Below, piece by piece: positions 1,631-47,291 of a DNA stretch of 64,000 nucleotides (position 1 is the stretch's first letter; each line of letters begins with the position of its first letter). Position numbers and translations under genes: made by a program. Origin of the DNA: Olleya sp. Bg11-27 (GTDB lineage Bacteria > Bacteroidota > Bacteroidia > Flavobacteriales > Flavobacteriaceae); contig NZ_CP025117.1 of the NCBI RefSeq assembly GCF_002831645.1, positions 4,169,001 to 4,233,000 of the forward strand, read 5' to 3'. The notes under the pieces are model-generated. The model worked only from the letters and a program-made list of their open reading frames with translations, was not told the DNA's origin and made no database searches.

Positions 1631-1678
1631 TATCATTAAATTCAGTGATAACAAAACGGGTAATCTAATATACATTTG
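1631..1678 (+). promoter_or_regulatory. Palindromic operator plus -7 box upstream of the sensor kinase operon
   Basis: The 20-mer TATCATTAAATTCAGTGATA (1631-1650) is an imperfect palindrome. Exactly 20 bases further lies TACATTTG (1671-1678), a match to the Bacteroidetes -7 box TAnnTTTG. The kinase ATG is at 1817, leaving a leader of about 130 bases. The same operator and spacing recur at other promoters in the window, so this is likely an activator site and would make the two-component operon part of the regulon. Confidence 0.7.
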
Positions 1679-1816
1679 TAATTACAGCCATACAGCGATT
1701 AAGTCCAATTCATATCAACGCGGTATACACAAATTACTAAATAAATTTAGAAAGTATTAATTACACCGTATGACCTGCCGCATAGGACAAGTAAAATCTC
1801 TATTTTTGTATTAAAT

Positions 1817-3793
1817 ATGAATAAAATCAAATACTTATTATGTATTGTCCTTTGCTTATACTTACCCCAAATAAGTAACGCGCAAGAACTAAACACGACT
1901 TCAATTGAAGCCTATATTTCTGTATATCAAACAGAAATAAATACAAACCCAGAAAAAGCTCAAAAAGCAGTAAAAAAATGGCTGGAGTTAAGTATCAAGC
2001 AAAATGACGTCATAAAAGAAGCACAGGCGCATTATGCTTTAGCTAATATTGGTAACATTACCGGAAATTACAAGCAGACCATAAAAGAAGCTCCCAAAGC
2101 AATCTCCATACTAAAAGCACAGCATATGGAAATGGGACTACCTGCGAGTTACAACGTTTTAGCCTTAGGTTATAAAAACTTAGGTCAGTATCCAGAAGCT
2201 ATGGATAGTTTTCTATTGTGTCTTAGTTATGCCGAAAAAACGGATGACAAACAACAACAGGCAAATGCGTATCAGAACATATCAACTTTATATATTCTAC
2301 AAAAAAACTATGAAAAGGCAGCCAATAATTTAGATAGAGCTGCTCAAATATACAGAGCATTAGGTGACGATAACGGTGTCTTAGTTACGCTTTTCAATTT
2401 TGCTAACATTTTAAAAGAACAAGGACGCTACAAAGAGGCTTATAAACATTATAAAACCGTCTTAGATTACCGTATAAAAGAAGGCAACAAAGCTTCCATC
2501 GCCTATGTGAAAATTAACCTTTCACAATTACTAGTCGAAGAAGGTAATTATGAAGAGGCTATCCCACAACTTAACGAAACCTTAAGTTTATTAGAAGAAT
2601 TAAAATTTACATCAGACATGGCTATTGTCTTAAACGACTTAGGCCTATGTCATTCTAAATTAGGACATACCGGACAAGCTATTGCTTACTTTGAAAGATC
2701 TTTAAAAATTGGAAAATCAAAGTCCTTACCCCAATACAATTCTCAATTTTACAAGAACCTTTCCCACTTGTATAAAGACATTGGTAATTACAAACAAGCA
2801 TTATATTATTACGAAAAAACAGTTTTAGTTACAGAAGATATAAATGCGGTGGATAAAGAAAAATATGTTGCAAATTTACAGGAGCAATATGAAACGGAGC
2901 TAAAAGAAACCCGGATTAAACTATTAGAAAAAGAACAAAAACTTAGTGAAGCCGAACTAGAAAAAGCAGCTTTAAATTTAGAGAAGACCGCTCTAGATTT
3001 GGATAGACAGCGTATGGTGCGTAATATTTTTATTGCTGGTTTTATAATCTTGTTGGGGGTCTTAATATTGTTACGCTATCTGTATTTGCAGCGTCTAAAA
3101 ATCCAACGTCAATTAACACTTCAAAAAGAAGAGAATGCAAGACAAGAAATTAACCAGTTAGTAAAAGATCATAAACTATCGGTTATAGAGCAATATCAAG
3201 AAGGCCAAGAAGAAGAACGTGCTAGATTATCTAGAGAAATCCATGACGGAATTGGTAGTGACCTAGCCAGTATTAAAATTGGTTTTGAGCATTATTTAGA
3301 ATCTAAAAAGTTTAGCCCACAAGGAAAACGATTATTACAAGCTATTGAGCAATCTTGTAAAGATGTCCGTTTACTGTCTCATCAATTACATCCGCTACCA
3401 TTTTCCAAAATTGGTTTTAGTAGCTTTTTAAAAGAAGCTTTAGAGCAACTAAAGAATACGAATGTCTTTTCTATAACCTCTTTTTTATATCCTGAGGACG
3501 CTATAGACGAACTTCCGGAAGCACTTTTAGCAGACACCTATCGTATAATCCAAGAGCTACTAAACAATATTATTAAGCACGCCAAGGCTACAGAGGTTGA
3601 AGTACAACTAACCAAACACGCAGCCTATTTAAATCTAGTCGTTAGTGATAATGGTTCTGGCTTCAAAACAAATAACAAACCAGGTATTGGTATCAGAAAT
3701 ATTAAAGAACGTGTCCATAAAAGACACGGAGAGGTAACCATAGATAGCTCGCCACAACATGGAACTTCAATAACAATTGATTTTCCTTTATAA
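1817..3793 (+). CDS. TPR-containing sensor histidine kinase (HisKA_3 type)
   Basis: This is a 658-residue membrane sensor kinase that autophosphorylates and passes the phosphate to a partner response regulator. A signal peptide (residues 1-22, ending SNAQ) exports a periplasmic TPR domain (about 25-345; repeats with the A-x-Y...G-x-Y-x-x-A pattern). A coiled coil follows (about 350-398), then one membrane segment (about 402-424), a second coiled coil, the HisKA_3 box (REIHDGIG; phosphoacceptor His476) and a HATPase_c domain with N box NNIIKHA (about 581) and G boxes DNGSGF (about 612) and GIGIRN (about 627). The response regulator follows 11 bases downstream. The TPR domain suggests that a protein or peptide is sensed in the periplasm, but the signal is unknown. 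Its own promoter carries the shared operator, so autoregulation is likely. Confidence 0.93.
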   Translation: MNKIKYLLCIVLCLYLPQISNAQELNTTSIEAYISVYQTEINTNPEKAQKAVKKWLELSIKQNDVIKEAQAHYALANIGNITGNYKQTIKEAPKAISILKAQHMEMGLPASYNVLALGYKNLGQYPEAMDSFLLCLSYAEKTDDKQQQANAYQNISTLYILQKNYEKAANNLDRAAQIYRALGDDNGVLVTLFNFANILKEQGRYKEAYKHYKTVLDYRIKEGNKASIAYVKINLSQLLVEEGNYEEAIPQLNETLSLLEELKFTSDMAIVLNDLGLCHSKLGHTGQAIAYFERSLKIGKSKSLPQYNSQFYKNLSHLYKDIGNYKQALYYYEKTVLVTEDINAVDKEKYVANLQEQYETELKETRIKLLEKEQKLSEAELEKAALNLEKTALDLDRQRMVRNIFIAGFIILLGVLILLRYLYLQRLKIQRQLTLQKEENARQEINQLVKDHKLSVIEQYQEGQEEERARLSREIHDGIGSDLASIKIGFEHYLESKKFSPQGKRLLQAIEQSCKDVRLLSHQLHPLPFSKIGFSSFLKEALEQLKNTNVFSITSFLYPEDAIDELPEALLADTYRIIQELLNNIIKHAKATEVEVQLTKHAAYLNLVVSDNGSGFKTNNKPGIGIRNIKERVHKRHGEVTIDSSPQHGTSITIDFPL

Positions 3794-3804
3794 CACCATT
3801 AAGA

Positions 3805-4443
3805 ATGAAACAAATAAATCTTATCATAGCAGACGACCATTTAATGTTTTTAGAAGGTCTAAATACCATTTTAAGTGAAATGGAAGAAATTAACACCATA
3901 CATATCGCTACCGAAGGGAAACAAGTTCTGCGTTTACTAGAGCAGTTTCCTATAGACTTAGTGATTAGTGACATTAATATGCCGAAAATGGATGGTTTAG
4001 AACTATTAACCGAACTTAAAAAAAAGAGCAATCCTCCAAAAGTGATTATTTTAAGCATGCTGGATAATCATCGAACCATCTATAAGGTTATTCAAAAAAA
4101 AGCAGATGGATTTGTTCCTAAATTTACAAGTAAAGCAGAATTACAAAAAGCAGTAAAAACGGTCATTGATGGCGAACAATATTTTTCTGAAGCCATAAAA
4201 CACAAATATATGGAGAGTGTTTTTGAAAGAAAAAAATACAAAGATATTGAGCTTTCTAAAAGAGAAAAAGAAGTCCTAGAATTATTATCTAAAGAATTGA
4301 CGTCTAAAGAGATTTCTGCAAAACTTTTCATATCTGTTAATACCGTAGAAACCCATCGTAAAAACATACTGCTTAAAACAGGATCTAAAACCACAACTGG
4401 AGCTGTAAAATATGGTATAGAAAGTGGCTTGTTTGACAACTAA
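3805..4443 (+). CDS. NarL/LuxR-family response regulator
   Basis: This 212-residue cytoplasmic transcription factor is the partner of the upstream kinase. The receiver domain (about 1-120) has the acidic pair D10-D11, the phosphoacceptor Asp56 (ISDINMP), the conserved Ser near 84 (IILSM) and Lys near 106. The LuxR/GerE helix-turn-helix (about 147-210) has the family signature LSKREKEVLELL...SKEISAKLFISVNTVETHRKNI. Length is normal for the family. Regulators of this class bind inverted repeats as dimers. The 20-bp palindrome found upstream of its own operon and of about eleven other promoters in this window is therefore a natural candidate target, but the window contains no direct proof of the link. 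Confidence 0.95.
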   Translation: MKQINLIIADDHLMFLEGLNTILSEMEEINTIHIATEGKQVLRLLEQFPIDLVISDINMPKMDGLELLTELKKKSNPPKVIILSMLDNHRTIYKVIQKKADGFVPKFTSKAELQKAVKTVIDGEQYFSEAIKHKYMESVFERKKYKDIELSKREKEVLELLSKELTSKEISAKLFISVNTVETHRKNILLKTGSKTTTGAVKYGIESGLFDN

Positions 4444-4830: not shown

Positions 4831-5105
4831 GGCGATTACTTAATTAAAACACCTTGTTTTGAACTTATTTTACAACAGCTTTTAAAAAATTATCAAAATT
4901 ATCTGAAGCGTCTTTTTTTTGAGATCATATATCTAGATTCAACGATGCTTACCAAGACACTCCCCCATTACAATACATATTGGAATTGCTAACCGATTTG
5001 TTTAAATCCAATTTCCTTAAAACTAAGGCATTTGAATCATTACCTTTTATCATCACTGAATACAGTGAGTCTTTTATATCCCAAAATAAGGTCTTAAATA
5101 AATAA
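4831..5105 (+). pseudogene. Frameshifted remnant of an unknown gene
   Basis: The 719-base gap 4444-5162 has no intact gene. From 4831 a frame reads GDYLIKTPCFELILQQLLKN... up to a run of eight T at 4913-4920. Coding-like sequence then continues in a different frame from 4923 (DHISRFNDAYQDTPPLQ... to LNK and stop at 5103-5105). The join at a homopolymer points to slippage or a sequencing error. No start codon is visible in frame. I do not recognise the family. Bases 4444-4830 are AT-rich and show nothing I can support. An operator copy (5051-5070) lies inside the 3' end of this relic. Confidence 0.45.
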
Positions 5106-5124
5106 GACTTATGCTCTAATTTTG
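5051..5124 (+). promoter_or_regulatory. Operator copy and -7 box upstream of the 131-aa gene
   Basis: CATCACTGAATACAGTGAGT (5051-5070) is a strong copy of the window's operator. Unlike the other copies there is no -7 box 20 bases downstream. The nearest good one is TAATTTTG at 5117-5124, 46 bases away and 38 bases before the ATG at 5163. This would place the operator near -67, so it may act from a class I position or regulate differently. Confidence 0.5.
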
Positions 5125-5162: not shown

Positions 5163-5558
5163 ATGGGACTACAAGAAAAGAAAGCAATACGCATGGTTGA
5201 AGAGCAATACTTAGCGGATTATCAAAAAGAAATTAATGAAGCTGCAGGAAAAGAACTACCAATAACAATTAATTGGGATACGTTTGAATTAGACTATATC
5301 AAATTTGTACCAAGTGTATGTTTACAACGTTTGACAGATGGACTTACAAGTATTTGTGCAGATGACTTAGGCAAAGAAGCTGTTCAAGAAGGTATAAATA
5401 CGATCGTGATTAACTGTATTCAAAATGAAGGTGCTGAAGAAAAAAAATCTTTAAAAATCGAAGATGGTGTATTTACACTAACAGCATGTTGGGGAGGTCA
5501 TCACTCCGGTTGTTTCCCTGATATTGCATTAAAAACATTTATAGAAAACTACTTATAG
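5163..5558 (+). CDS. Unrecognised 131-residue protein
   Basis: This small soluble acidic protein has no signal peptide or membrane segment. The N-terminal third is helical (GLQEKKAIRMVEEQYL, then a second helix ending in EAAGKELP). The rest is mixed, ending in a beta-rich segment (ITIVINCIQ..., SLKIEDGVFTLTACWGG) and a last helix. I have an impression of a small family that starts with MGLQEKRAI and occurs near DUF4132/MolR-type genes, but I cannot verify it. The gene stands alone, with an operator upstream and a strong terminator at 5564. It is the nearest forward gene to the LRR/DUF4132 block and probably belongs to the same regulon. No catalytic motif is apparent. Confidence 0.75.
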   Translation: MGLQEKKAIRMVEEQYLADYQKEINEAAGKELPITINWDTFELDYIKFVPSVCLQRLTDGLTSICADDLGKEAVQEGINTIVINCIQNEGAEEKKSLKIEDGVFTLTACWGGHHSGCFPDIALKTFIENYL

Positions 5559-5766: not shown

Positions 5767-8292
5767 CTACCCCCTAAATGGCGCTTCACTATCTTCATCA
5801 TCAAAATTTCTTTGCGACACTGATTTATTTTCTAGTGGCTCATAGAGTTCAGATTTCATATTACTACCATTAAATTTAGAGGTCCAGTAGACTAATTTTT
5901 GTAGGTTAAGGTTTCTAAATTCTTCGGCTACTTTTTCAGAGAAATCACAACCACTAATACTTAATACTTCCAGCTGTGTTAATGCTGCTAATTCTACAGG
6001 TAAAACAACTTGTTTAAAATTGTTTATTCCTAAAACACGTAGATTTTTCAGATTCGCAATCCAAATTGGTATTTTTTCCCCTCTGTTATGTGCGCTGATA
6101 AAAAGCATTTCTAAATTCAACTCAGAAATCGATTCTGGATATATGCTTCCTTTTTCATCTAAGCCTTCTAACCAAAGATGTTTTAAAGAATTCCAACGCG
6201 ATATTGCTATAATACTTTCATCGTTAATATGATCACAATGTATCAGTTTTACGGCTTCAATAGTGTCGACGTTTAAATTATTTATGGTTTTAAGCGCGAC
6301 ACTCTGCATTCTTAATTTTTTAAGCTGAGGCAATGTTACCGCAGGAAAAGCATCAAAACCTTTGGCTTCAAATATCCCTAAAAATTCAAGGCTTGGTGTA
6401 TGAGTTAATAAACGCTCTAAAGTTTCAGTAGTTCCGTTATAATCATCAATCCTTAGTACTTTTAAATTGGTGTGTTTAAAAGCGGTTAATGCATTGTTAT
6501 GTTCTGGATTGGCTTTTTTAAATGTGATGGTAAGTTCTTTTAAATTGACGAAGTTTTTAAATAAGCTATCTAATTGACTCACATCACTGGTAAAATCAAA
6601 CGATTCAATGTTCTCTGGATGTCTAAAGGTTTCAAAATTTAAAACATTATTAACGTCATCATTTCTATGTCCAAGATTAAATTTAGCAGCGCTAATTACT
6701 GCATAAAATTCCTTTAAATTAAGAATTGGTGTGGCTTTAATTTCCAGATTAAACACATCAAACGGTTCTGTTCCTGCTTTTATGCCTTTAATTTCAGAAA
6801 TCGTTAAATTGGTAATATGTTTTGGCAAGCAATCGGTATTTACAACTAAGGCACTCGCATTTTTAATCGTCAGGTTTTCTAACTGAGCTATTTTTGAAAA
6901 TACATTTGGAAAAATTCTAACCGCTAATTTTAGATCTTTAGTATGCCACTCTTTAAATCTGTATAACTCTACATTTTTAAGTTCTGTACATTGCTCAATC
7001 CCTTCAAAAAGCCAATCTAATTTATGTTCTAATTTGTAATTAAGCGTTGTTAAGTTTTTAAATACAGCTAATGATGTTTTATGCGGAATTTCTGGTGCTT
7101 CACAATCTACAGTTATCGTCTTTAAATTAGGAAAAAACGAAGCATTGTCTAACACAAAGTTCAGAAGTTTAGGCGAATCTATTTCTATAGACTCTCGCAG
7201 ACTAACTTTCGTCATTGGTGTAATATTAGTTTCTTCGCTATATGTAATTTTTGTTTCTAATTTAGGTCTAGGTGTATCTCCAAAACATCTAGACGCATCT
7301 CCAAAAAATAAGGTAGATGATATGGAGTTTATCTTAGGGGCATTAAGCTCAAAAAGTTCTAATTTTGGTAAATCTTCAAATCCACTTGGTAAGCTATCTA
7401 TGCTTTTAGATAAAATCTGAAACTCTTTTAGTTGCTTTAAGTGGCTAACATCTTTAGGTAATGCTGTTAATTCATTTAAGTAAAACAATTCTATACGTTT
7501 TAAAGATGCAGGAAACACAACTTGAGACAGGTCTTGCACGCCTACATAACGTAGTTTGAATACTTTTAATTCAGTAAGGTCTGTAAGCCAATTAAAATCA
7601 GTCAGATTCATATTAGGAATAATTTTTCCAATCCAATAATCACCTTCTATACATATTTTTTTTAAGGCTGTTAACTGAGACATTGTACTAGGAAACCTTA
7701 TTAAACAAGGCGCAACAAGCTTTAATTTTTTTAAATTTGATAAATTACCAAAATCCTCTGGTAGTTGTTCATAATCACCTTCTAGATCTAATTCTTCTAA
7801 AGACGTTAATTTTGATATCTCATTAAGAATACTATCATATTTATTACCAAAATCTTTTAAATGGATTTTTAAACTTTTTACGCCGTTAAATCGTCTTAAT
7901 ATATGTGGATGTTCTAACAAGCGATCTAAAAAATCTGTCGAAGAATGAAAAAGCCATAGTTCTGATCCTCCACTAATTATATCATATAATTTAAGAAGGT
8001 CTAAGTCTTCAGATAGCAATCCATATTCTAAAATAGAAATCATTCTGGCTACACGCTTTCCTTTTTGTGTTATTTTTTTTCGACTTTTAAAGGCTAATTG
8101 CAAAGCTTCTGGGGCTTGTTTTTTTATGATGTTAGCACACTCTGTTCTATTTTTTTTATTAGATGTTGCTTTTGCAATCACAAAAATTTCATAATAAAAA
8201 TCCTCTGGAAAGTTTTTACACTTTTTAATGTCTTCATAATACTCATCCATTGTATAAAACTTGAAAACAGGTGTTTCTGCTGGTTTTGTCAT
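5767..8292 (-). CDS. Giant leucine-rich-repeat protein, family member 1
   Basis: This is an 841-residue cytoplasmic protein with no signal peptide. The N-terminal 110 residues are helical and carry the block FPEDFYYEIFVIAKAT...ECANIIKKQAPEALQLAFKSRKKIT, which is nearly identical in the neighbour at 8371. From about residue 130 onward irregular leucine-rich repeats (L-x-x-L-x-L, with N/C-type turns) run almost to the end, forming a long solenoid expected to bind proteins. A short C-terminal cap carries SKFNGSNM, matched by FNGNNM and FGGYNM in the two relatives. The gene lies 78 bases downstream of the paralogue on the same strand and shares its operator promoter. The target is unknown. The N-terminal domain is the only part besides the cap that could hold an activity, and no catalytic motif is visible in it. 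Confidence 0.9.
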   Translation of the reverse strand: MTKPAETPVFKFYTMDEYYEDIKKCKNFPEDFYYEIFVIAKATSNKKNRTECANIIKKQAPEALQLAFKSRKKITQKGKRVARMISILEYGLLSEDLDLLKLYDIISGGSELWLFHSSTDFLDRLLEHPHILRRFNGVKSLKIHLKDFGNKYDSILNEISKLTSLEELDLEGDYEQLPEDFGNLSNLKKLKLVAPCLIRFPSTMSQLTALKKICIEGDYWIGKIIPNMNLTDFNWLTDLTELKVFKLRYVGVQDLSQVVFPASLKRIELFYLNELTALPKDVSHLKQLKEFQILSKSIDSLPSGFEDLPKLELFELNAPKINSISSTLFFGDASRCFGDTPRPKLETKITYSEETNITPMTKVSLRESIEIDSPKLLNFVLDNASFFPNLKTITVDCEAPEIPHKTSLAVFKNLTTLNYKLEHKLDWLFEGIEQCTELKNVELYRFKEWHTKDLKLAVRIFPNVFSKIAQLENLTIKNASALVVNTDCLPKHITNLTISEIKGIKAGTEPFDVFNLEIKATPILNLKEFYAVISAAKFNLGHRNDDVNNVLNFETFRHPENIESFDFTSDVSQLDSLFKNFVNLKELTITFKKANPEHNNALTAFKHTNLKVLRIDDYNGTTETLERLLTHTPSLEFLGIFEAKGFDAFPAVTLPQLKKLRMQSVALKTINNLNVDTIEAVKLIHCDHINDESIIAISRWNSLKHLWLEGLDEKGSIYPESISELNLEMLFISAHNRGEKIPIWIANLKNLRVLGINNFKQVVLPVELAALTQLEVLSISGCDFSEKVAEEFRNLNLQKLVYWTSKFNGSNMKSELYEPLENKSVSQRNFDDEDSEAPFRG

Positions 8293-8370
8293 AGTAATCG
8301 TTAATTTTTAAAGTATAAATTTCTTTTGGAAACAGTTTTTTTAGATACAGTACGTTGTGCTTTAATTTCT

Positions 8371-10884
8371 TTAACAGTACAGATTATATTTTTCATCTCT
8401 GTTATCAAAATCCTCTTTTAATATTTTATTTCCAGCTAATGCGTAAAATTTAGACCACTTCATATTGTTTCCATTAAATTTTGAAAACCTATAAATTAAT
8501 TCCTCTAAATTCAGATTCTTAAATTTATCAGACACTTGTTCTGTAAAATCACAGCCTCTAATACTCATTATTTTTAATTGGGTTAATTCGGCTAATTCTT
8601 CTGGTAATGGACAATAATAAAACTGTTCTATTCCTAGAACTCGTAAGGATTTCATTCTTCCTATCCATTTCGGGATTTGTCTTTTAGTTAAAAATCCATC
8701 AATAAAAAAGGTGTCTAAATTTAAGTCTGCAATGGTCTCTGGGTAGGTTTCAAGATCTCTACTAATGCTTTGTAACCAAAGAAATTTAAGCGTTTTCCAA
8801 TGCGATGCCGTAACCATAGCATCGTAACCAAAATTGTCACACGATAAAACTTTAAAAAGTTCTATGTTGGGCACTGTTAAGTTTTCTATAGACTGTATAT
8901 CATCGCTATAAAATAATTTCAGTATTTTTAGTTTGTTTAAAGTAACCTTAGGTAAATCTACAAGTCCTACACACTCGTAAATTTCTAAAAATTCTAGATG
9001 AGGCGTATGCTCCAATAATAACTTAATAACATTAGTGTTACCATTAAAATTTTTAATGGTTAAGTTTTTTAAATTATGGTGCGTATAAGCGGTTAAACCA
9101 TTGTTTTGTTCGACATTATCTTTATTAAAATCAATGGTTAGTGATTGTAAATTACAAAGTGTTTTTAATGCTTTGTCTAAGCCTTTTACATTACTATTAA
9201 ATATAAAATCTTTAAAGCTTTCAGGGTCTTTAAAATTATCAAAATCCAAAGTCTCATTTTTAACACTGTTTACATCGTCTAACTTAATTTTTTTAGCACG
9301 TATGACCGAATAAAATTTTTGCAATGCGGTAATAGGTGTACCTACTACTTTTATATGATTTACCTCAAAATCTTCAACACCTGGCTCAATGACTTTTATA
9401 TCTGTAATGGTAAGACTGTCTGTCTTTATAGGTAAATAATCTGTATTTAAAACTAGTGCTTTTGCACTTTGTACGCGTAAGGTTTGTAAATGCTTTACTC
9501 TAGAAAATGCTTGAGGGAAATTAGTAACGTCAGCGTTCGTTATTTCAGCATCAGCTCCATTATATATACCAGAAATAAAAACGTCTTCTAGCTTTTTACA
9601 TTTGTGAATACCCTCTAAAACCCATTCTAAATGATGTGCTAATTTATACTTAAGGTTTTTAAGTTTTTTAAATGCAGAAAACGTATGTGGACTTCTTCTT
9701 TGTGGTGCATCACAATTAATTTCTATCTCTTTTAAATTAGTAAAAGACAAGGCATTATCTAATACAAAACTAAGAAGCTCTGGATGGGTAAAAACGATTC
9801 TTTTTAGTTTAGTTACAGGTGTTACTCCATAAGGCATAAACTCTGTATACAAACCTAGTAGACGTTTAATATTTGGTCCAAAAATAAAAGATGCAGGAAC
9901 TTTTTTTAATTTAGATAAATGAATAGCTTCAAAAACCTCTAAGGTTTTAAATTCACTAACAGATGCAGGAAATTGTTCTAGCTCCCTCATACCACTTAGC
10001 CTTAATTTTTTCAATTTGGGCAAGTGACCAAGTGTTTCTGGTAAAGCGGTTAAATTCTCAAACCTAAAAAGCTCTAATTTTTTTAAACTTAGCGGAAGCT
10101 CAACATCAGAGAGGTCTTGTACCGCAAAAGAGCCTATTTTTAAATCCTTTAAACTTGTCAATTCTTTAAGCCAAGTAAAGTTAACTATGTTAGGGTTAGG
10201 CTCGTCTTCACCATAAGGAAAACTCCCCCTAAACTCCAACTTTTTAAGTGCTTTTAACTTGGTTATTCCTACGGGAATCCATACCAAGTTAGGTGCTGTT
10301 AGAATAAACTCTTTTAAGTTAACTAATCGTTCTAGTTCTTCTGGTATGTATTTATAATCAATTTCAAGCTCAAGTTTTTCTAATGAAATAAGTTGCGTTA
10401 TGTTGTTTACAACGCTACTAAAACCTTCTTTCTGTCTAGAGGTGCTAATTGTTAATTCTTTAACACCGTTAAACTGACTTAAAAGCCGTGGTGTTTTTAT
10501 GAAAAGTTCAATGACTTCTTTACTTCTATATTCAAGCGAAAGCGTTAAACGCTTACAAACAAGTGTGTATAGTTTACAAAGGTCTAAGTCTTCTGAGAGT
10601 ACGCCATACTCTAATATAGCAATCAGCTTCTTGTTAAAAGAATAAGAATCCTCTATTAACGTTATTTTTTTTCGACTCTTAAAGGCGAGTTGTAAAGCTT
10701 CTGGTGCCTGTTTTTTTATGATATTGGCACATTCGGTTCTAATCTGCTTGTTTTTAGTAGATTTAGCAAGTACAAAAATCTCATAATAAAAATCTTCTGG
10801 GTAATTTTCACATCCTTTAATTTTTTCAAAAGATGTTTCGTCTTCATAAAAGTTGAAACCAAATTCGTGTTTAGCAAATATCAT
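8371..10884 (-). CDS. Giant leucine-rich-repeat protein, family member 2
   Basis: This 837-residue paralogue of the 5767-8292 protein is its upstream neighbour and probably the first gene of a two-gene transcript. It has the same three-part build: a helical N-terminal domain (about 1-120, block YPEDFYYEIFVLAKST...ECANIIKKQAPEALQLAFKSRKKIT), a leucine-rich-repeat solenoid (about 130-790) and a C-terminal cap with SKFNGNNMKW. Divergence is greatest in the repeats, while the N-terminal block is almost unchanged. That pattern fits a constant functional end joined to a variable recognition surface. The promoter (10907-10954) faces away from the DUF4132 gene and the two promoters share the intergenic space. 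No signal peptide or membrane segment is present. Confidence 0.9.
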   Translation of the reverse strand: MIFAKHEFGFNFYEDETSFEKIKGCENYPEDFYYEIFVLAKSTKNKQIRTECANIIKKQAPEALQLAFKSRKKITLIEDSYSFNKKLIAILEYGVLSEDLDLCKLYTLVCKRLTLSLEYRSKEVIELFIKTPRLLSQFNGVKELTISTSRQKEGFSSVVNNITQLISLEKLELEIDYKYIPEELERLVNLKEFILTAPNLVWIPVGITKLKALKKLEFRGSFPYGEDEPNPNIVNFTWLKELTSLKDLKIGSFAVQDLSDVELPLSLKKLELFRFENLTALPETLGHLPKLKKLRLSGMRELEQFPASVSEFKTLEVFEAIHLSKLKKVPASFIFGPNIKRLLGLYTEFMPYGVTPVTKLKRIVFTHPELLSFVLDNALSFTNLKEIEINCDAPQRRSPHTFSAFKKLKNLKYKLAHHLEWVLEGIHKCKKLEDVFISGIYNGADAEITNADVTNFPQAFSRVKHLQTLRVQSAKALVLNTDYLPIKTDSLTITDIKVIEPGVEDFEVNHIKVVGTPITALQKFYSVIRAKKIKLDDVNSVKNETLDFDNFKDPESFKDFIFNSNVKGLDKALKTLCNLQSLTIDFNKDNVEQNNGLTAYTHHNLKNLTIKNFNGNTNVIKLLLEHTPHLEFLEIYECVGLVDLPKVTLNKLKILKLFYSDDIQSIENLTVPNIELFKVLSCDNFGYDAMVTASHWKTLKFLWLQSISRDLETYPETIADLNLDTFFIDGFLTKRQIPKWIGRMKSLRVLGIEQFYYCPLPEELAELTQLKIMSIRGCDFTEQVSDKFKNLNLEELIYRFSKFNGNNMKWSKFYALAGNKILKEDFDNRDEKYNLYC

Positions 10885-10906: not shown

Positions 10907-10954
10907 CAAACCTATTTTAAAACACGGTGTTATTTGTCACTGTATTCTGTGATA
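10907..10954 (-). promoter_or_regulatory. Operator plus -7 box for the LRR pair
   Basis: On the reverse strand the operator occupies 10954-10935 (forward strand TGTCACTGTATTCTGTGATA). The -7 box TAGGTTTG is at 10914-10907, exactly 20 bases downstream and 22 bases before the ATG at 10884. It is divergent from the DUF4132 promoter, with only 31 bases between the two operators. Confidence 0.75.
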
Positions 10955-10985: not shown

Positions 10986-11033
10986 TATCATTAAATACAG
11001 TGAGTAAAAAAAGACTGTTTACTTTTATCTTGC
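10986..11033 (+). promoter_or_regulatory. Operator plus -7 box for the DUF4132 gene
   Basis: TATCATTAAATACAGTGAGT (10986-11005) is followed after 20 bases by TATCTTGC (11026-11033), a shortened match to TAnnTTTG. The ATG is at 11098. The distance from operator end to ATG (92 bases between) equals that at the 131-aa gene at 5163, which may be chance. Confidence 0.65.
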
Positions 11034-11097: not shown

Positions 11098-14000
11098 ATG
11101 ATTCCAGTAGAAGATGCTAAAAAATATGTAAGTAAACATAAAAAACCAGAAGTAGATCGGTTTGAATTTCGTCAATTCTCCGAACCCTATCGTGTTTTAG
11201 GCAAAATTTTAGGTCGTATAGATAAAGATAAAAGGGTCTATTATAATATTAATGATTTCATTACTGTATTTGATGATGCTATTACCGTAAACCCATGGAG
11301 AACCCAAGAAGGCATGCGTTTAGGAATGCAACTGTATGGTATCATTCAAACACCATATTTAGCAGATATGTGGGACTTTATGGATACGCTTCCTTATCAA
11401 AGAGACTATAATAGAAAAGCCTTTAGATCTGTAAAGACACAAGATACATTACGCAATAAATTACAATTTTTTACTCGGTTTTTACAATTAAGCAGAACTG
11501 GGTATGGCGGCTTAACACTACACGAGCACTTTCAATACAGCACCTATTTTCATGGTTCCAATAGTTATTTTTTAGCCACATTACTACATAATGGGAATGG
11601 TATTTTTGATGAATTGTTAGACGATATTATTCAAAATGAAGATGAAATTGGAGGTATTAGCGCAGATATTATAAAAGCGTTATTACTTTCTGAAGATGAA
11701 AAACACTGGGAGATGGTGGGTAAATTATTACTCGCAGCCCAACGTCAAGAAGGTTTAAGACAAACTATTTTAGAATCTCTAGACGTTTCTAATCTTGGTG
11801 CTCTAAAATATATGATTACTATTATTTTAGAAAATGACTTAGCCCGTTTTACAAGTGTAAACAGAGCTGTTTGTACTTGGTTCGGTTTAAAGTGGGAAAC
11901 GCCTAAAAAAGCAATAATTAATCGTGTGTTAGAGCTAGCACAATCTTTAATTCTAAATTCGGAAGACGTTGATACCCTACTAAAAAGCAAAGATAATTTA
12001 GAAGTTTTAGTGGCTTTATGGTCTATTGCTATAATAGATGTAGACAAAGCCAATACAAAAGCTTTGGACATCGTTTATACTTCAGAAGATCGGAATAAAA
12101 AGATTCTAGCTTTATATTTTATTCATACAACTGATAAAACCAACGATTCTTTAGTCGAATATTTCAAAAAAGAACTTGGTAAAGATTACGCCTTAGACCA
12201 TTGGATGGCGGTAAATTTACCTCTAACTACTTTAGACAACGACACCTTCCTAAAATTATTTGAAGTTGCAAAAACAGCAGAAGACAAAGGTAAAACTTTC
12301 GAGAGTAAAATATTTTCGTGGTGGAGCTTTACGCCTTCATCTTATTATTTCTATCAGTTTTTAATTAATGGCGCCAATGAAGAACAATTAGAATTAATAG
12401 CCAATGATTTAGAAATACTTCCAACAGAGTTTAGAGAAAGCTACATCCGTAAAGTATTTCCAAAAGATTACAGCTATTCCTTTTATAATTACGAACAGGA
12501 TGCAAAGAAAAAGGAGCGTTTAAATTACGATGAAAACTCTTGGAAAAGAGCTTTAGCAAGAAAAGCAATTTATAACAGAAATGAGTTATTAATGTCTACC
12601 GGACTTAGCCTGTTTAGTAGGATGCATCTTTATGATAAAGATTTAGAGATTGCCGAAGATTTATTAAGACGAAAACATAAAAACTTACGTACCTCATTAA
12701 TTAAATTGTTAGTAGAATTACCTGCCGACCGTTTAAGAACAAGTGCTACAAATTTAGTAACAGCAAAAAGTATAGATCAGCGTATCGCAGGTCTAGAGAT
12801 GTTAACCCTTTTACACGATGAAAACAGACAGTCTAATTTTGTAGAAAACCAAATTCGTCTCTATACCGAACGTCCTAAAATCACCAAAAACGAACAAGTT
12901 TATTTAGATAAATTTTCTGATAATGCCGAAGAATTCGATTTCAGTAATGGTTTTGGTGCTATAGATTATGATAACTTAACAGCATTGTATATTCCACAAT
13001 CGCGTTTTGAAAAAAAGACCAGTTTCTTTAACAAATTAGGAATTACAACCTCTGAATTTTCTGGTTTTAAATTCAAAGAATTTATAGATGCGAATAAAAT
13101 TATCAAGGAAGTCAATACGTTAATTGATATTGTCACTAAAAACAGAAATCACGAATATCAAACAGAACTATATAAGGGAGAAATAGTCACCACTTATATA
13201 GACAAAGGCATTCGTGATATTAAAAACTTAGGAAATGATGCAACACCAGAAGAACTGTTGTATAACTTACCTTTAGCAAACGTATGGATTGCTTGGTACG
13301 AGCAAAGCACCCTTAATGATTTTGAAATGTATGCTGCAATTCGTTACATTATTAATCATGATAATCCACTTGGAGACTATAAAGAATTAGGGTCTTTTGC
13401 TCGACAATATTATCCGGAATTAAGTGGTTTAAAACTAGGAAAAGAAGATCCTTACAATTCTAAATCTGATGCCTATAATAAAATTTTAATTCGTCTATTT
13501 AAAGTCTATGCAGAACAAAGAATTATAGCTAATTTTAAGCTAGATATTATGGAAGATATGATCGCTAATTTTCCTAAAAACCTCAAGTCAATACAGTATC
13601 AGACCTCTAATTATCGCTATAATAATAAAACGTATAATTGGGCAAATATTATTTTACCGCTTGTACCAAGTTTAAGTATGAATAGTTTAGAGTTTCTCAC
13701 AGAAGCACAGCTTCAAAGATATTGGGGACTTTATATGTATTTAGTTGCGCAAGATATTGTCTACCCTAATACAACTACAGATGTAAAAGTGATTACTAAA
13801 CAATTTAGCAGACCAGGCATTGTACCGTTCCCAAGTATTGCTGTTACTTTAAGTCTTTACAAAAAAGGATTACTCAACGATGACGATTTACGCTTTCAAG
13901 CCTTACATTCTCGTGAATTAATGGTCATTATGGATGGTGGATTTAATCATAGAATGAATTATAAATGGATAGAAAAAGACTGCGTACCTAAGCACGTATT

Positions 14001-27635: not shown

Positions 27636-27637
27636 AT

Positions 27638-28712: not shown

Positions 28713-28717
28713 TGAAA

Positions 28718-29374: not shown

Positions 29375-29415
29375 ATTAATTTTAATTAAATTTAGTTTAC
29401 CATTTAAAGATAGTA

Positions 29416-30021: not shown

Positions 30022-30033
30022 TTCATCTTTTTT

Positions 30034-30453: not shown

Positions 30454-30473
30454 TTTAAAAATGGCGCGTTACA

Positions 30474-31232: not shown

Positions 31233-31252
31233 AATTTGATTTAAATTTTATT

Positions 31253-31774
31253 TTATTTAAAAAAAGTACCAGACTCAGTCATTCCTATTGGGAATTTTGT
31301 GCGTTCTGTCCATTCTTCGTTATTTAAAATTGCATTGGGTTGCATTTTGATTTTAATCTCTAAACTTTTTCTACCTACCAATACTATTTTATCTTCTATA
31401 TTGGATTTTGTCGTATTGAAAACGTCTAAATAGTTTTCATTAAAATGCATAAGCATAATTTGTGTTTTATTACCAATTTTATAGATATCTAACACCTTAA
31501 AATAAGCACCAGAAGTAATTATATGAAATCCATATTTTGCAACATCAGGATTTATTTCGCCTAAATTTGATGCTGCATTTGAAGCAATGGCAAACCTAAC
31601 ATTTTTACTTAAACCTTCTGCATGGTTAGACACGTCTGCAAACCCTCTTTCTTGTATAATTTGGTCTATTTTATAGGCAGAAATTAAATGTTCTGTAAGT
31701 TCGCAATCTCTATAATACATTGTTAATCCTGAAAATGTACTTTGATAAGCTTGTTCTATTTTTTCGTTTTTCAT
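31253..31774 (-). CDS. Unrecognised 173-residue protein
   Basis: Read from the ATG at 31774 (MKNEKIEQAYQSTF), this protein has no signal peptide. A longer frame starts at 31843, but it would overlap the 3' end of the neighbouring DUF1963-like gene, so I prefer the shorter start, 16 bases after that stop. It is mixed alpha/beta: LISAYKIDQIIQERGF helix, then KYGFHIITSGAYFKVLDIYKIGNKTQIMLMHFN with alternating strands. One Cys, no metal-binding cluster. Function unknown. Confidence 0.6.
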   Translation of the reverse strand: MKNEKIEQAYQSTFSGLTMYYRDCELTEHLISAYKIDQIIQERGFADVSNHAEGLSKNVRFAIASNAASNLGEINPDVAKYGFHIITSGAYFKVLDIYKIGNKTQIMLMHFNENYLDVFNTTKSNIEDKIVLVGRKSLEIKIKMQPNAILNNEEWTERTKFPIGMTESGTFFK

Positions 31775-31790
31775 TTCATAATTTATGTTA

Positions 31791-34182: not shown

Positions 34183-34824
34183 CTAATTAAAAATAATAGC
34201 TGTTTTATTTGTAATACTATATTTAGCAGCTTCTAAAAGCGTAACACAAACTAATATTTCAATCCAAAAAGGCCCCTCATTCTCAATAATTACATTTAAT
34301 TCTGATAAATTTGTAATGGTGTCATTTTCGCCTAATTTTATACCTAAAGACGTTGTTACATCTTTCAATTCTTTTAAAAGATTATAAGATGATCCTATCA
34401 TTGCTCCAGGAACAGGTGCTTCGTCAGTACTAAAAAGGACTTCTGGCAATTCTACAGGAAGATAGAAACCTTCAGAGTCTGAATGCGTTAATAAGTGGCT
34501 AGACATATAAGAATAGTGGTCCTCTAAAATAGGATCTTCTGTTGGATCCTCTTCTGCGGAAAAAGGCAAAGGCGACCAAGCATCATTATCTTCGTTTTCC
34601 CAAGTATGGGCTAAAAAACGTCTTAAATGATGTAAAAAACTATAAGAAAAACCACCGACATGTAAAGGTGTATTTTCTAGAACATCAGGCTCTTGATGAG
34701 GCTCTAAATTATTAGAAGCCAATATCACATTTATATTTTCAAAAATATTTTTATAAGCTTCATATCCTTCTGGCTCGTTCTCTATAAAGTCTACTAAAAT
34801 TCCACTTGAAATTGTTAATCCCAT
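34183..34824 (-). CDS. Unrecognised 213-residue protein
   Basis: This soluble protein has no signal peptide. N-terminal segment: GLTISSGILVDFIENEPEGYEAYKNIFENINVIL. The middle contains HVGGFSYSFLHHLRRFLAHTW with two His and Arg residues followed by an acidic Pro-rich loop, and DHYSYMSSHLLTHSDSEGFYLPVEL. The C-terminus is hydrophobic helix (WIEILVCVTLLEAAKYSI). The mixture of His and Asp/Glu in the centre could bind a metal, but this is a guess. The gene is the sole user of the operator promoter at 34850-34897. Confidence 0.7.
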   Translation of the reverse strand: MGLTISSGILVDFIENEPEGYEAYKNIFENINVILASNNLEPHQEPDVLENTPLHVGGFSYSFLHHLRRFLAHTWENEDNDAWSPLPFSAEEDPTEDPILEDHYSYMSSHLLTHSDSEGFYLPVELPEVLFSTDEAPVPGAMIGSSYNLLKELKDVTTSLGIKLGENDTITNLSELNVIIENEGPFWIEILVCVTLLEAAKYSITNKTAIIFN

Positions 34825-34849: not shown

Positions 34850-34897
34850 CAAAATTAGGATTAATGTGGGCCCTGCTTATCACTGAAATCAGTGATA
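34850..34897 (-). promoter_or_regulatory. Operator plus -7 box for the 213-aa gene
   Basis: TATCACTGAAATCAGTGATA (34878-34897) is the most symmetrical copy in the window: only the central two positions break the palindrome. On the reverse strand TAATTTTG lies at 34857-34850, 20 bases away, and the ATG is at 34824. Confidence 0.8.
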
Positions 34898-35027: not shown

Positions 35028-35933
35028 TTATAACCATTCTGTATTTATACCCATTGCAACAAACTCGTTATAAACATGCTCTTTTGCATAACATAGTGTT
35101 ACTTTTTTTAAATTAGGAAACTGTTTAGCATCAGTACTAAGTTCAATATCCCAATCGGATTCACTACCACCAGAAAAAGGTGCCAAATTCATATAAATAT
35201 CGTTTCCTCCATCTTGATAGATTTCTGTAATTTCCGAAGCTAATTTTTTAGGTATTGGTAAATCTTTAAAATATTGTACAACCTCAGCAATAGGTTCATA
35301 TCCTTCTTCATCAATATCTATTTTACGGTCTTTGTACCACTTTGCAAATTCATAGATATCAAATTTAGGTTGCAATAATTCCTTCACATACATTAACTCC
35401 TCAATAATAGACAGTTTAAATCCAAAATCTGTAAACGTGATTTGTTCTTCAGCAAGTTGTTTTATAGTGTACTTATCTTCCACAATACCTGCCGAACGTT
35501 GATATGGTTCGTAATTACTTATTTCAATAGCACTAATAATAGTATCATTAACATCAAACCAAGCACTAATATTATGTTGTACCAACGCACCACAATCATC
35601 ACCTTCAAACAGTTCTACCCGTTCTGATTTATGGTCTTTATAATAACTCGTAATCTCTTCATCATTAAAATAAAACGTTCCAGAGAATTTTTGTTTTGGA
35701 CTAAAATCGTAAGCATCTGGTTCGAATTCTAAAGTTAGTGAATCTATAAATTCTCCGTTTTCAGAATATCCTAAAATCCCTAAATCATCCCATGTAAAAA
35801 TAGTGTTGTTTTTCGCTTTAAATGTTCTAAAATCATTATCCAAACTACTTATTAATTTTGTTACAGAAACGGGGAATGTAATAGAAATTGAATTAATTAG
35901 AAATTCAGTTGAAGATAGGTGTATTGTTGTCAT
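35028..35933 (-). CDS. Protein with DUF6892-like C-terminus
   Basis: This 301-residue soluble acidic protein has a beta-rich N-terminal half (FTWDDLGILGYSENGEFIDSLTLEF, then a YDFSPKQKFSGTFYFNDEEIT segment). The C-terminal third (about 225-301: FKDLPIPKKLASEITEIYQDGGNDIYMNLAPFSGGSESDWDIEL..FPNLKKVTLCYAKEHV) is what I recall of DUF6892-type domains, with the conserved DGGNDIY and FPNLKKV segments. Function unknown; family members often lie next to SMI1 or LRR genes in such loci. It has its own operator promoter on the reverse strand. Confidence 0.65.
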   Translation of the reverse strand: MTTIHLSSTEFLINSISITFPVSVTKLISSLDNDFRTFKAKNNTIFTWDDLGILGYSENGEFIDSLTLEFEPDAYDFSPKQKFSGTFYFNDEEITSYYKDHKSERVELFEGDDCGALVQHNISAWFDVNDTIISAIEISNYEPYQRSAGIVEDKYTIKQLAEEQITFTDFGFKLSIIEELMYVKELLQPKFDIYEFAKWYKDRKIDIDEEGYEPIAEVVQYFKDLPIPKKLASEITEIYQDGGNDIYMNLAPFSGGSESDWDIELSTDAKQFPNLKKVTLCYAKEHVYNEFVAMGINTEWL

Positions 35934-35952: not shown

Positions 35953-36000
35953 CAAAGATAATCACTTAACAAGTAAATTAAGACTCCTTTTTCAGAGATA
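35953..36000 (-). promoter_or_regulatory. Operator plus -7 box for the DUF6892-like gene
   Basis: Reverse strand TATCTCTGAA (first half of the operator, 36000-35991) is intact while the second half is degenerate. TATCTTTG (35960-35953) is a perfect -7 box 20 bases downstream. Only 50 bases separate it from the operator of the divergent vWA operon. Confidence 0.6.
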
Positions 36001-36050: not shown

Positions 36051-36099
36051 AATCACCCTTTTCAGTGATTAAAAAAGCAAGTTGTAATGGTTAACTTTG
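36051..36099 (+). promoter_or_regulatory. Operator plus -7 box for the coiled-coil/vWA/PurA-like operon
   Basis: AATCACCCTTTTCAGTGATT (36051-36070) is followed by TAACTTTG at 36092-36099 (gap of 21 bases). The ATG at 36117 is 18 bases beyond the box. An upstream in-frame ATG at 36087 falls on the promoter and is rejected as the start. Confidence 0.7.
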
Positions 36100-37333: not shown

Positions 37334-38470
37334 ATGCCAAAGTGCAGTATAGTTATAGATTTAGGATTTGGAGATGCTGGAAAAGGGTTAACTACCGACT
37401 TTCTGGCATCTCAACATCCTGAAAAAAGTGTCGTGGTTCGGTTTTCTGGTGGTCATCAAATTGGGCACACAGTAAGCACAGATAAGCTCACGCATACCTT
37501 TAGTAATTTTGGTTCCGGGACATTATTGGGAGTTCCAACGTATTACTCGGAACATACGACCCTATTTCCGCCTGCTATTTTAGACGAAGGTGATTTCTTA
37601 AAAACCTATCAGCCTAAATTATATTTTCATCCCTTAGCGATGATTACTACCTTTTATGATATTGCTTATAACAGAGCGCTAGAAAAACTACAAAACCATG
37701 GGTCTTGTGGCTTAGGTTTTGGAACAACCATTGCTAGAAATAAAGATGAAGTTTATTTGTATGCCAACGATTTACAGTTTAAATGGGTTTTAAAACAGCG
37801 CTTACAAAGTATAAAGACCTATTACGAAACAAAGCTAAAAAGTCAGCCAAAACCGGTACAAGAGTATTATAAAAATGAACTAAAGGAGTATAACGAAAAC
37901 TATTTTACAGACAGTTGTTTAGATATTAAAAAGTTTTATAGTGTAACGTCCCTTTCAGAATTAGCGACAACATTTGAGCATTTTATTTTTGAGGGCAGCC
38001 AGGGAATTTTACTAGATACCCAACATGGATTTTATCCGCACACTACCTGGAGCTACACCTCTTCTAAAAATGCCATTCAACTTATAAAAACACATTTAAG
38101 TAATACAACACAAATTGATATATTTTACGTTACGCGTTGTTATCAAACTAGACATGGAAACGGACCAATGTCTGATACATTTGCAGTAACATTACAAAAT
38201 AATGAGAATGAAGCCAATATAACTAATGAATTTCAAGGTGAATTTAGAGCCAAATCTTTAGACTCAGGATTACTTAATTATGCTTTAAGTTGTGACGCTA
38301 TTCATCATCAGGATTTAAAAATATCTAAAAACTTAATTATTACCTGTCTTGATCAACTCCCTTGTTTCTCTCTCTCAGACTTACTTAAAAGCATAACGAC
38401 TAACTTCAAATCCACTTATGCTAGTTATGGTCCCATGCGTCAATTTATAAAAAAAACTTGTTATAAGTAA
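37334..38470 (+). CDS. Divergent adenylosuccinate synthetase (PurA)-like protein
   Basis: This 378-residue protein is shorter than PurA (about 430). It keeps the family order: GFGDAGKG (residues 11-18, the GTP-binding loop, normally WGDEGKG) with catalytic-type Asp14, VRFSGGHQIGHTV with His45 (H41 in E. coli PurA), GLGFGTTIARNK (normally GTTGRGIGP), FEGSQGILLDTQHGFYPHTTWS, TRCYQTRHGNGPM (normally TRVGxGPFPT), EFRAKSLDSGLLNYAL and ITCLDQLPC (normally TKLDVL). The replacement of the DEGKG glutamate by Ala and the lost TGRGIGP motif suggest it no longer does normal purine synthesis. It starts directly at the end of the vWA gene. Confidence 0.88.
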   Translation: MPKCSIVIDLGFGDAGKGLTTDFLASQHPEKSVVVRFSGGHQIGHTVSTDKLTHTFSNFGSGTLLGVPTYYSEHTTLFPPAILDEGDFLKTYQPKLYFHPLAMITTFYDIAYNRALEKLQNHGSCGLGFGTTIARNKDEVYLYANDLQFKWVLKQRLQSIKTYYETKLKSQPKPVQEYYKNELKEYNENYFTDSCLDIKKFYSVTSLSELATTFEHFIFEGSQGILLDTQHGFYPHTTWSYTSSKNAIQLIKTHLSNTTQIDIFYVTRCYQTRHGNGPMSDTFAVTLQNNENEANITNEFQGEFRAKSLDSGLLNYALSCDAIHHQDLKISKNLIITCLDQLPCFSLSDLLKSITTNFKSTYASYGPMRQFIKKTCYK

Positions 38471-38519: not shown

Positions 38520-38567
38520 AATCATCGTTTTCGGGGATAGTCCGCCCCATATAGCCAAGTACCTTAG
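38520..38567 (+). promoter_or_regulatory. Operator-like site plus -7-like box upstream of the SMI1-fusion operon
   Basis: AATCATCGTTTTCGGGGATA (38520-38539) matches 13 of 20 consensus positions, the right half best. TACCTTAG (38560-38567) differs at one position from TAnnTTTG and lies exactly 20 bases downstream. The ATG is at 38591. Confidence 0.55.
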
Positions 38568-46095: not shown

Positions 46096-46503
46096 TTAAT
46101 TAATTTTTACATCATTTAAAACAACGCCTTTAAGAATAGCATTGAAGTAAGAATAAGATCGCGCGTACTCATCTTCAGCCACAAAAGATTGATTAAGATT
46201 AGTTACTATCGCTTTTTCAAAATTAAAGAAGGCAGTAGGTTCCTCTTGGTTTTGATGATAAATTTTTAACGATCCAGACCAATCGCCGGGGTGATTAGAA
46301 ATCCATTCTAAAAAGAAAGTATCAATAGCCTCATTGATAGCGCCAGAAAGATTAACATCTAAAGTCCGATCTTGTTCATCTTGCTCTGAGTAATAATTAG
46401 ATGAAAAATTGTAATCACATTGATTCAACGTAAATAACTTTTCAGTATTAGCTTCTTTTTTTATTAATAATTCTATTCGCTCTATTGGTTTTACTTCTTT
46501 CAT
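46096..46503 (-). CDS. TssD/Hcp-like small beta-barrel protein (tentative)
   Basis: This 135-residue soluble protein is predicted to be beta-rich. NFSSNYYSEQDEQDRTLDVNLSGAINEAIDTFFLEWISNHPGDWSGSLKIYHQNQEEPTAFFNFEKAIVTNLNQSF and a final strand LKGVVLNDVKIN match the spacing of Bacteroidetes TssD (Hcp-type T6SS tube) proteins: Y.FS, two inner strands, D..EW, G.I.(F), F..A, closing strand. Sequence identity is low, and no other T6SS genes occur in the window. It follows the 229-aa gene (26-base gap) and its operator promoter. Might instead be an orphan tube-like protein or a beta-barrel with another role. Confidence 0.5.
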   Translation of the reverse strand: MKEVKPIERIELLIKKEANTEKLFTLNQCDYNFSSNYYSEQDEQDRTLDVNLSGAINEAIDTFFLEWISNHPGDWSGSLKIYHQNQEEPTAFFNFEKAIVTNLNQSFVAEDEYARSYSYFNAILKGVVLNDVKIN

Positions 46504-46528
46504 AAGTATGTTTTATTATATAATTATT

Positions 46529-47218
46529 TTATAGACATTGCTCTATTTGATTTTGCAACTCTGTTTTAGAAGCTACACTTTTTAAATTTTTAGATATATC
46601 TAAAGTTATCAGAAGTCCTTTATTTTTTAATACCACTTTATTCTCTGTTCCTAATTTAAAATCGACAGTCGTAATCATTTCTGTAAATGTCGTTTTTACT
46701 AATTTATCTTCAGAGAGACTAGTTATTGTTTCTTTTAACAACGCTATACCTTTAGCTGCATAATACTTCTCGATATCGCTAGGTGTATCATCGTAGTTAA
46801 AACTTATAGCGATTTCTATATCTAAAGCAGCCTTCAACTCTATTTCTACATTTTTCAGGTCTTTTTTTAGTTGGAGTATGGTCGGTATTTCATTCGCTGG
46901 CGGCATAAAAGCAATCTTTCCATCAGAAAAAAGATAAGTATAACTATTGATATTAGTCAAGGAAATAGAAGCTATAGCATGTGACTGAATGTATTGTAAT
47001 TCGGCATTACGATCATATAAATCACATAGTAAAATTGTACGCTTTTCACTGCTGTAATTCACAAAAAATCCAGAAACATGACCAGCCTGCGTACTAATAG
47101 AAACCTTTGGCATACTCGGTTTTTCCTTACTGCGCTCTTTATCTGCGATCTCCTGAAGTAAACTTATAACCTGGCTAATATCTAGTACAGGTAATTGTAA
47201 TAATGTTTTAAAATCCAT
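46529..47218 (-). CDS. Unrecognised 229-residue protein, partly Sm-like
   Basis: This soluble protein has an N-terminal helix (residues 8-30). Then comes a beta-rich segment (about 38-105, VSISTQAGHVSGFFVNYSSEKRTILLCDLYDRNAELQYIQSHAIASISL) that loosely resembles Sm-like barrels (GHVSG, then YIP-type strand, then I.AI.L). A helical part (AALDIEIAISFNY...KYYAAKGIALLKETI) and a terminal strand-helix segment follow. The fold guess is weak. It is probably co-transcribed with the Hcp-like gene from the operator promoter at 47244-47291. Confidence 0.6.
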   Translation of the reverse strand: MDFKTLLQLPVLDISQVISLLQEIADKERSKEKPSMPKVSISTQAGHVSGFFVNYSSEKRTILLCDLYDRNAELQYIQSHAIASISLTNINSYTYLFSDGKIAFMPPANEIPTILQLKKDLKNVEIELKAALDIEIAISFNYDDTPSDIEKYYAAKGIALLKETITSLSEDKLVKTTFTEMITTVDFKLGTENKVVLKNKGLLITLDISKNLKSVASKTELQNQIEQCL

Positions 47219-47243
47219 AGTCGTATTTTTTTAAGTAATACCA

Positions 47244-47291
47244 CAAAGTTGGCGTATTCTATAGGATACATGTTCACTGTATTCAGTGATA
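47244..47291 (-). promoter_or_regulatory. Operator plus -7 box for the Hcp-like pair
   Basis: GTTCACTGTATTCAGTGATA (47272-47291) includes an intact TCACTG...CAGTGA core. On the reverse strand CAACTTTG (47251-47244), one mismatch from TAnnTTTG, follows 20 bases away. The ATG is at 47218. Confidence 0.75.

Follow-up and report, generated by a model that had tools for sequence, protein, structure and literature searches.

A palindromic operator at a fixed distance from sigma-A promoter boxes defines a regulon in a 46-kb gene block of Olleya sp. Bg11-27, with a NarL-type response regulator as its candidate binding protein

The window analysed here, a 64,000-nucleotide stretch of the Olleya sp. 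Bg11-27 genome (NZ_CP025117.1; G000:C1:4169001-4233000; genome 4.31 Mb, GC content of the window 32%), contains a block of about 46 kb of mostly uncharacterised genes whose promoters have one DNA element in common. This element is a palindromic operator (consensus TATCACTGAATTCAGTGATA) with its centre at about -42.5. The first copy of the block (1631-1650, plus strand; box TACATTTG at 1671-1678, gap of 20 nt) lies just upstream of two genes transcribed in the same direction: 1817-3793, coding for a 658-aa TPR sensor histidine kinase with HisKA_3 and HATPase_c domains (Pfam), and 3805-4443, coding for a NarL/FixJ-type response regulator that is proposed to be the operator-binding protein. In Pfam the regulator contains a Response_reg domain (7e-26) followed by a GerE (LuxR-type) helix-turn-helix (HTH) domain (1e-14), which is the NarL/FixJ architecture, and the HisKA_3 kinase adjoining it is likewise that of a NarL/FixJ pair. 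Among solved structures its best match was NarL (1a04, residues 5-200, E=8e-26), followed by VraR. It was the only one of the 40 block proteins scanned with a DNA-binding domain of transcription-factor type above the Pfam cut-off.

An initial annotation of the window had listed twelve operator sites, ten of them exactly 20 nt from a -7 box, with 21 nt at 36051 and 46 nt at 5051. A sequence check found all twelve at those coordinates, with these distances and with the boxes oriented to the genes. Besides 1631, the plus-strand sites with a 20-nt gap were 10986-11005 (box TATCTTGC, TAnnTTGY type, at 11026-11033), before the gene for a DUF4132 giant protein; 18471-18490 (box TAATTTTG at 18511-18518), 19273-19292 (TAATTTTG at 19313-19320) and 20116-20135 (TAATTTTG at 20156-20163), before three paralogues of the 18485 family, the second being 19346-19981 and the third possibly opening a same-strand run to 24536 that includes an LRR protein; and 38520-38539 (box TACCTTAG at 38560-38567), before SUKH gene 38591, 39690, DUF1266 gene 42201 and TPR gene 42848. 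On the minus strand were 10935-10954 (box TAGGTTTG at 10907-10914), before LRR gene 8371-10884 and possibly 5767-8292; 34878-34897 (self-complementary at 18 of 20 positions; box TAATTTTG at 34850-34857), before 34183-34824 and perhaps also the minus-strand run that follows below; 35981-36000, a weak operator (box TATCTTTG at 35953-35960), before DUF7738-DUF6892 gene 35028-35933; and 47272-47291 (box CAACTTTG at 47244-47251), before 46529-47218 and TssD-like 46096-46503. The 21-nt site, 36051-36070 on the plus strand (box TAACTTTG at 36092-36099), precedes 36087, vWA-like 36470 and PurA-like 37334. With 5051 and 36051 taken at their own spacing, nine of the twelve boxes were exact TAnnTTTG sequences, the sigma-A -7 box, the other three being those of 10986, 38520 and 47272. 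Leave-one-out scores of the operators ranged from 11.9 to 23.4 bits for eleven sites, and the next-best site of the window (41675) lay within a coding sequence and lacked a box. The longest open reading frames (ORFs) at 18485, 20130 and 36087 start at the -7 boxes or upstream of them, so the true start codons must be downstream, for instance at MSGTLHGKEK, MKINPLNRKEN and MEDNVKSAAF.

The rarity of this arrangement was then evaluated in the source genome. The full 20-mer with at most three mismatches occurred four times in the window, against 0.01 expected. The bare core TCACTGNNNTCAGTGA with at most two mismatches was not enriched over the whole genome (59 strand hits versus 74 in the reversed control) and, being no commoner than that control, was not used as evidence; the signal is the full operator with its fixed spacing. 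From ten of the twelve sites, leaving out 35981 and 5051, a profile covering operator, gap and box was built on sequence alone, and the genome search with it scored 150 of 5776 first-look candidates. There were 11 matches at E<0.05, all of them within 4170631-4216291, and the best one outside had E=0.17. These 11 comprise ten training sites plus the 5051 palindrome, so that it is the lack of comparable matches elsewhere that counts as evidence. In this search the operator-gap-box combination is confined to the block instead of being common genome-wide, and the earlier statement that the 47.3-64 kb part carries no copy was correct for operator-box pairs. One possible exception lies outside the window, at G000:C1:1564765 (1564765-1564809, E=0.29), 73 nt upstream of a gene for an ankyrin-repeat protein and 19 nt from a TAnnTTGY box. 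Its operator is identical in the orthologue of G005, where the flanks are similar too, and it may represent a thirteenth member of the regulon outside the block. About 4 kb from a paralogue of the regulator in the same genome (2970873) there is a weak profile match (E=0.34) that overlaps a terminator-like inverted repeat. No operator-box pair with at least 16 self-complementary positions and an exact box was found in the 20 kb around 2970873, by criteria that also missed most of the sister sites described below.

In order to examine the spacing beyond the window, boxes were counted around 103 operators of relatives, on both strands, skipping operators less than about 110-130 bases from an end. 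G005 was left out as too close to the window, and L105 and L125 were dropped as the same contigs as G003 and G004; these two loci were also omitted from the analyses of gap information and of the 46-nt promoters. Boxes with at least five of six matches numbered 90 at offset 20 and 35 at offset 46, the other offsets having a mean of 2.2 and a maximum of 11 (offset 26). Exact TAnnTTTG boxes numbered 15 at offset 20 and 29 at offset 46. In 119 distinct gap-20 promoters the gap carried only about 0.1 bit per position, indicating that the distance is kept and the sequence is not; operator score and box had served to select these promoters, which leaves the low information content of the gap as their only independent feature.

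Activator-dependent promoters of class II have their operator near -41.5. The initial annotation had placed the operator at about -41, as in class II activation. The class II neighbourhood held up, with a slightly refined centre: the sigma-A box of Flavobacterium psychrophilum occupies -12 to -5 in the available parts of PMC9723704, so that the operator spans about -52 to -33 and is centred at -42.5. The same parts describe promoter classes SM1-3, with TAnnTTTG, and SM5, with TAnnTTGY at the same place. The DUF4132 promoter has kept a TAnnTTGY box, either TATCTTGC or TATATTGC, in 7/7 genomes examined. With its fixed offset the operator covers the -33 region at the class II place, and the fixed spacing, this position and an almost unconstrained gap would together fit class II activation.

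The operator was also found to be inherited together with the regulator. Of 60 related genomes, ten gave at least one profile match at E<=0.05 and six gave at least three (G000, 11; G005, 9; G003, 4; G023, 4; G001, 3; G004, 3). The same six genomes, and no others, encode the regulator at 78-100% identity; below them identity falls to 48% at best. The five congeners lacking the regulator (G002 and G006-G009, G006 being only 75% complete) gave no profile match. Fisher tests yielded p=2e-8 for at least three matches and 4e-6 if any match counts; both ignore kinship and, the species not being independent, overstate the case. In an even sample of 199 genomes of the family, G000 and G023 had both the regulator and profile matches, G132 had the regulator alone and G203 had a single profile match alone (E=0.005). 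A GTDB scan with the six regulators provided a broader set, in which the best 80 of 114 relatives comprised 31 orthologue loci (regulator identity 74-93%) and 49 loci with distant regulators (46% or less). The orthologue loci belong to Joostella, Mesonia, Winogradskyella, Olleya, Maribacter, Formosa, Leeuwenhoekiella, Flavobacterium, Salegentibacter, Myroides, Zunongwangia and Bizionia; some are near-duplicates (e.g. L127 and L128), and their regulators have a nearly identical HTH. At E<=0.1 the profile gave 31 matches, spread over 19 of the orthologue loci and absent from the 49 others. An operator-only matrix, from which 35981 was left out, found 80 sites at threshold 16 in all 31 orthologue loci (640 kb), versus one site (in L132) in the 49 others (804 kb). 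The spread over twelve genera makes shared descent alone an unlikely reason. Sites upstream of homologous genes were seen across relatives by the profile, by the matrix and in orthologous promoters, and this comparison gives good support to the earlier claims of one regulon and of a fixed distance.

The promoter with the 46-nt gap deserved separate attention. It comprises a strong distal operator (5051-5070, plus strand) and a TAATTTTG box (5117-5124), followed by a gene for a 131-aa protein (5163-5558, plus strand) with a homologue in 29 of the 31 orthologue loci. This protein had no match in Pfam, NCBIfam or PDB folds (best E in the fold search 0.65). The distance is conserved before this gene, with 27 exact boxes at offset 46 in the 31 orthologue loci. 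Between operator and box lies a degenerate operator-like element (5077-5096, plus strand), which starts 26 nt after the start of the first operator and ends 20 nt before the box. Across 36 gap-46 promoters the best-scoring offset after the operator itself was indeed 26, and positions T3, C4, C6 and G15 of the operator were retained there in 71-97%. The mean score of the element was -4.6 bits, versus -17.9 for offsets at large, and 4.2 bits in the source genome; it would not count as a site alone, being too weak. The initial annotation was right about the 46 nt, and with an element at 20 nt from its box 5051 is more than a mere exception. In most relatives the 5051-type palindrome also faces, on the other strand, a gap-20 box and an ORF of about 330 aa with a hydrophobic N-terminus; ORFs of this kind, taken as homologous from visual comparison, occur in 28 of the 31 orthologue loci. 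The source genome showed none next to 5051, and the search for a remnant of it gave a best E=1, in G005.

A second class of operators was detected in five Flavobacterium loci (L133, L134, L135, L137 and L141) whose regulator is 43-46% identical. Their sites resemble AATCACTATAAATAGTGATT, with CTA for CTG, and have a box at 19-20 nt in 11 of 14 site orientations. They precede LRR-like genes (L137) and the homologue of the 131-aa gene (L133 and L134). The pattern was absent from the remaining 75 GTDB loci; as it was derived from the sister loci themselves, only this absence and the box spacing count. The HTH motif is TVNTHKRN in the sister loci versus TVETHRKN in the orthologues compared. Crocinitomix L132 retains TVETHRKN and has a CTG-type palindrome with a five-of-six box at 20 nt. 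In these small numbers, the sister loci would look like a regulator and its operator diverging together.

The surroundings of the kinase-regulator pair itself were also compared. In 24 of the 31 orthologue loci the pair ends a same-strand gene run (gaps mostly <125 nt) headed by an operator-20-box promoter, and in the source genome and G005 it stands alone under an operator of its own (1631 in the source genome). That an operator was kept through this rearrangement suggests that autoregulation, which may be positive, has been selected. Regulator identity is 93% with Joostella atrarenae (L101), from another genus, and only 78-81% with congeners G001, G003 and G004, which suggests horizontal exchange of the module.

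Operator and spacing are conserved, operator-box pairs are confined to the block and co-inherited with the regulator, and the sites stand before orthologous genes. Judged from these sequence comparisons, the regulon is almost certainly real. Response regulator 3805-4443 very probably binds the operator, by a mechanism that would run as follows. In response to a signal, the TPR kinase 1817-3793 would phosphorylate its partner regulator 3805-4443; a dimer of the phosphorylated regulator would bind the palindrome near -42.5, in place of a -33 element, and recruit sigma-A RNA polymerase to the -7 box 20 nt downstream. The whole block, including the kinase-regulator pair, would thereby be switched on. 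At the 131-aa gene, the strong distal operator would act together with the degenerate element at the standard position.

Several observations weigh against this interpretation. The 35981 operator is weak in the source genome (4.1 bits), and the profile, untrained on it, missed it at E<=10; better versions of it stand before the orthologous genes in G003 and G004. Genome G132 carries the regulator yet gave no profile match at E<=0.01, its operators being found only by the matrix (7 sites at threshold 13 in the 60 kb of its island, 6 of them before orthologous genes), and the profile failed to match at E<=0.1 in 12 of the 31 orthologue loci, although all of these have operator-matrix sites. One or two profile matches occurred in G040, G054, G058 and G203, and operator-like palindromes occurred in G059, from another family, where there was no regulator match at E<=1e-40. 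Seven of the 31 orthologue loci showed no operator-box promoter before the kinase, including L101, whose regulator is 93% identical. Finally, co-inheritance cannot separate the regulator from any other protein that is always inherited with it. The palindromes of G059 (L198:4951-4996 and 9162-9216; L199:10130) include one tandem pair with 26-nt spacing and have no good box at 20 nt.

The fact that the site overlaps the -33 region could also be accounted for if the same response regulator were a repressor, covering this region and blocking RNA polymerase until a signal removes it. We consider this unlikely: a protein that blocks could be expected to act from various positions, yet the 20-nt spacing is fixed over many genera, the -33 position is occupied by operator sequence, and even the 46-nt promoters retain an operator-like element at the 20-nt distance. 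It is quite improbable that the palindrome is bound instead by a different DNA-binding protein that is constantly inherited along with the block. Family matches are lacking for many proteins of the block, which might contain an unrecognised DNA-binding domain, and the DUF4132 giant, found in the same six of the 60 genomes plus a 37% homologue in G053, is, that homologue aside, co-distributed as tightly as the regulator. In the orthologue loci, however, only kinase and regulator have homologues in 31/31, the next protein in 29 (these loci extend about 10 kb to each side, which favours neighbours), and in the sister loci a changed HTH goes together with a changed operator.

The fixed spacing would equally be expected of a promoter element, such as the -35 region of an alternative sigma factor, and the DUF4132 promoters, with their TAnnTTGY box, correspond to the SM5 class of F. 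psychrophilum in the available parts of PMC9723704. Against this explanation, which we regard as very improbable, the element is a palindrome, relatives have single copies with a box on either strand, nine of the 12 window boxes are ordinary sigma-A TAnnTTTG, and the 46-nt spacing also occurs. A family of chance copies, or a dispersed repeat that came to lie in promoters, would agree with the bare core being no commoner than its reversed control; it is hardly credible, because the gap sequences are unrelated between copies, orthologous promoters retain the site across genera and the spacing peak is overwhelming. Activation by regulator 3805-4443 is thus the explanation that we prefer.

The proteins placed under this promoter type belong to diverse families: DUF5724-DUF4132-DUF7737, LRR, DUF1444-like, SUKH/SMI1, SUFU, DUF1963, DUF2314-ankyrin, DUF7738-DUF6892, divergent PurA-like, DUF1266, TPR and TssD-like. 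They include the 1666-aa DUF5724-DUF4132-DUF7737 giant (11098-16098, plus strand; Pfam), co-distributed with the regulator, and two LRR proteins of 841 and 837 aa (5767-10884, minus strand; Pfam LRR_14). Most labels of the initial annotation agreed with these assignments: LRR, DUF4132, SMI1 and PurA-like were recovered in Pfam, and its Hcp-like protein is the TssD of 46096-46503. The YtpQ-like (DUF1444) label applied to one of three paralogues above the cut-off, another falling just below. The vWA label of the 36470 protein agreed with a DVTGS motif seen by eye, invariant in 4/4 sequences, and had no family match behind it. The PurA (adenylosuccinate synthetase)-like protein that follows it (37334-38470) scored 95.7 bits, far below the cut-off of 402. 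A minus-strand run of twelve ORFs (24615-32585), with SUFU, SUKH, DUF1963, DUF2314-ankyrin, endonuclease V-like and oxygenase-like members, resembles a collection of immunity genes and may or may not be transcribed from the 34878 promoter. Several families of the regulon are known immunity proteins of toxin systems. A study of the radiation-desiccation response regulon of Deinococcus (PMC8533742) reportedly mentions DUF4132 once, which could hint at a role in stress.

Two TssD (Hcp) proteins are encoded in the area, one inside the regulon (46096-46503) and one just left of the window (L018:18192-18956), with TssC located about 740 kb away in the source genome. A regulon bound to a type VI secretion system was considered and discarded: TssC (PF17541) was present in G000, G004 and G005 and was not found in the regulon-bearing G001, G003 and G023, indicating that this secretion system is not needed. 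PF05943 had no match in the 60 genomes and was uninformative on Bacteroidota TssC. PADLOC analysis of eight block proteins gave only a weak AbiEii match (E=0.005), and no defence system is claimed.

The system resembles NarL/FixJ two-component systems of the NarXL, VraSR and DegSU type in its HisKA_3 kinase and its regulator with receiver and GerE HTH domains, and differs from them in its own operator sequence, its TPR sensor domain, its sigma-A promoter of Bacteroidota type and the near confinement of its regulon to one block. For a NarL-type two-component regulon, confinement to one island of unknown function is unusual. As in class II promoters, the operator lies over the -33 region (about -42.5) at a fixed distance from the -7 box; unlike those known elsewhere, the box is the Bacteroidota TAnnTTTG rather than a -10 box, and activation would be the corresponding mode of action. 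The boxes fall into the SM1-3 and SM5 classes of F. psychrophilum, the DUF4132 promoters having TAnnTTGY, and no such upstream operator is described in the available parts of PMC9723704. Among the literature matches listed, titles and abstract openings contained nothing on this regulator, operator or gene block.

As a tentative interpretation, the block may be a horizontally exchanged, self-contained island regulon, in which a two-component system controls an uncharacterised response of its own, made up of many proteins, and in which operator and HTH have co-diverged into CTG and CTA classes, insulating neighbouring systems; biologically, marine flavobacteria could use it as an inducible response to conflict or envelope stress. 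No counterpart of such an island appeared in the titles and abstract openings among the matches listed. If this were so, the response would comprise the DUF4132 giant, the vWA-like, PurA-like and TPR genes, LRR proteins and immunity-like proteins. The regulon gathers unrelated-looking proteins of unknown function into one co-regulated response for which a candidate regulator can be named, and its DNA signature can be used for finding further members in other genomes. It is also a clear example, for Bacteroidota, of sigma-A promoters spaced from an operator, and it varies naturally in this spacing (20, 21, 19 and 46 nt), in its two classes of box and in having a sister operator class.

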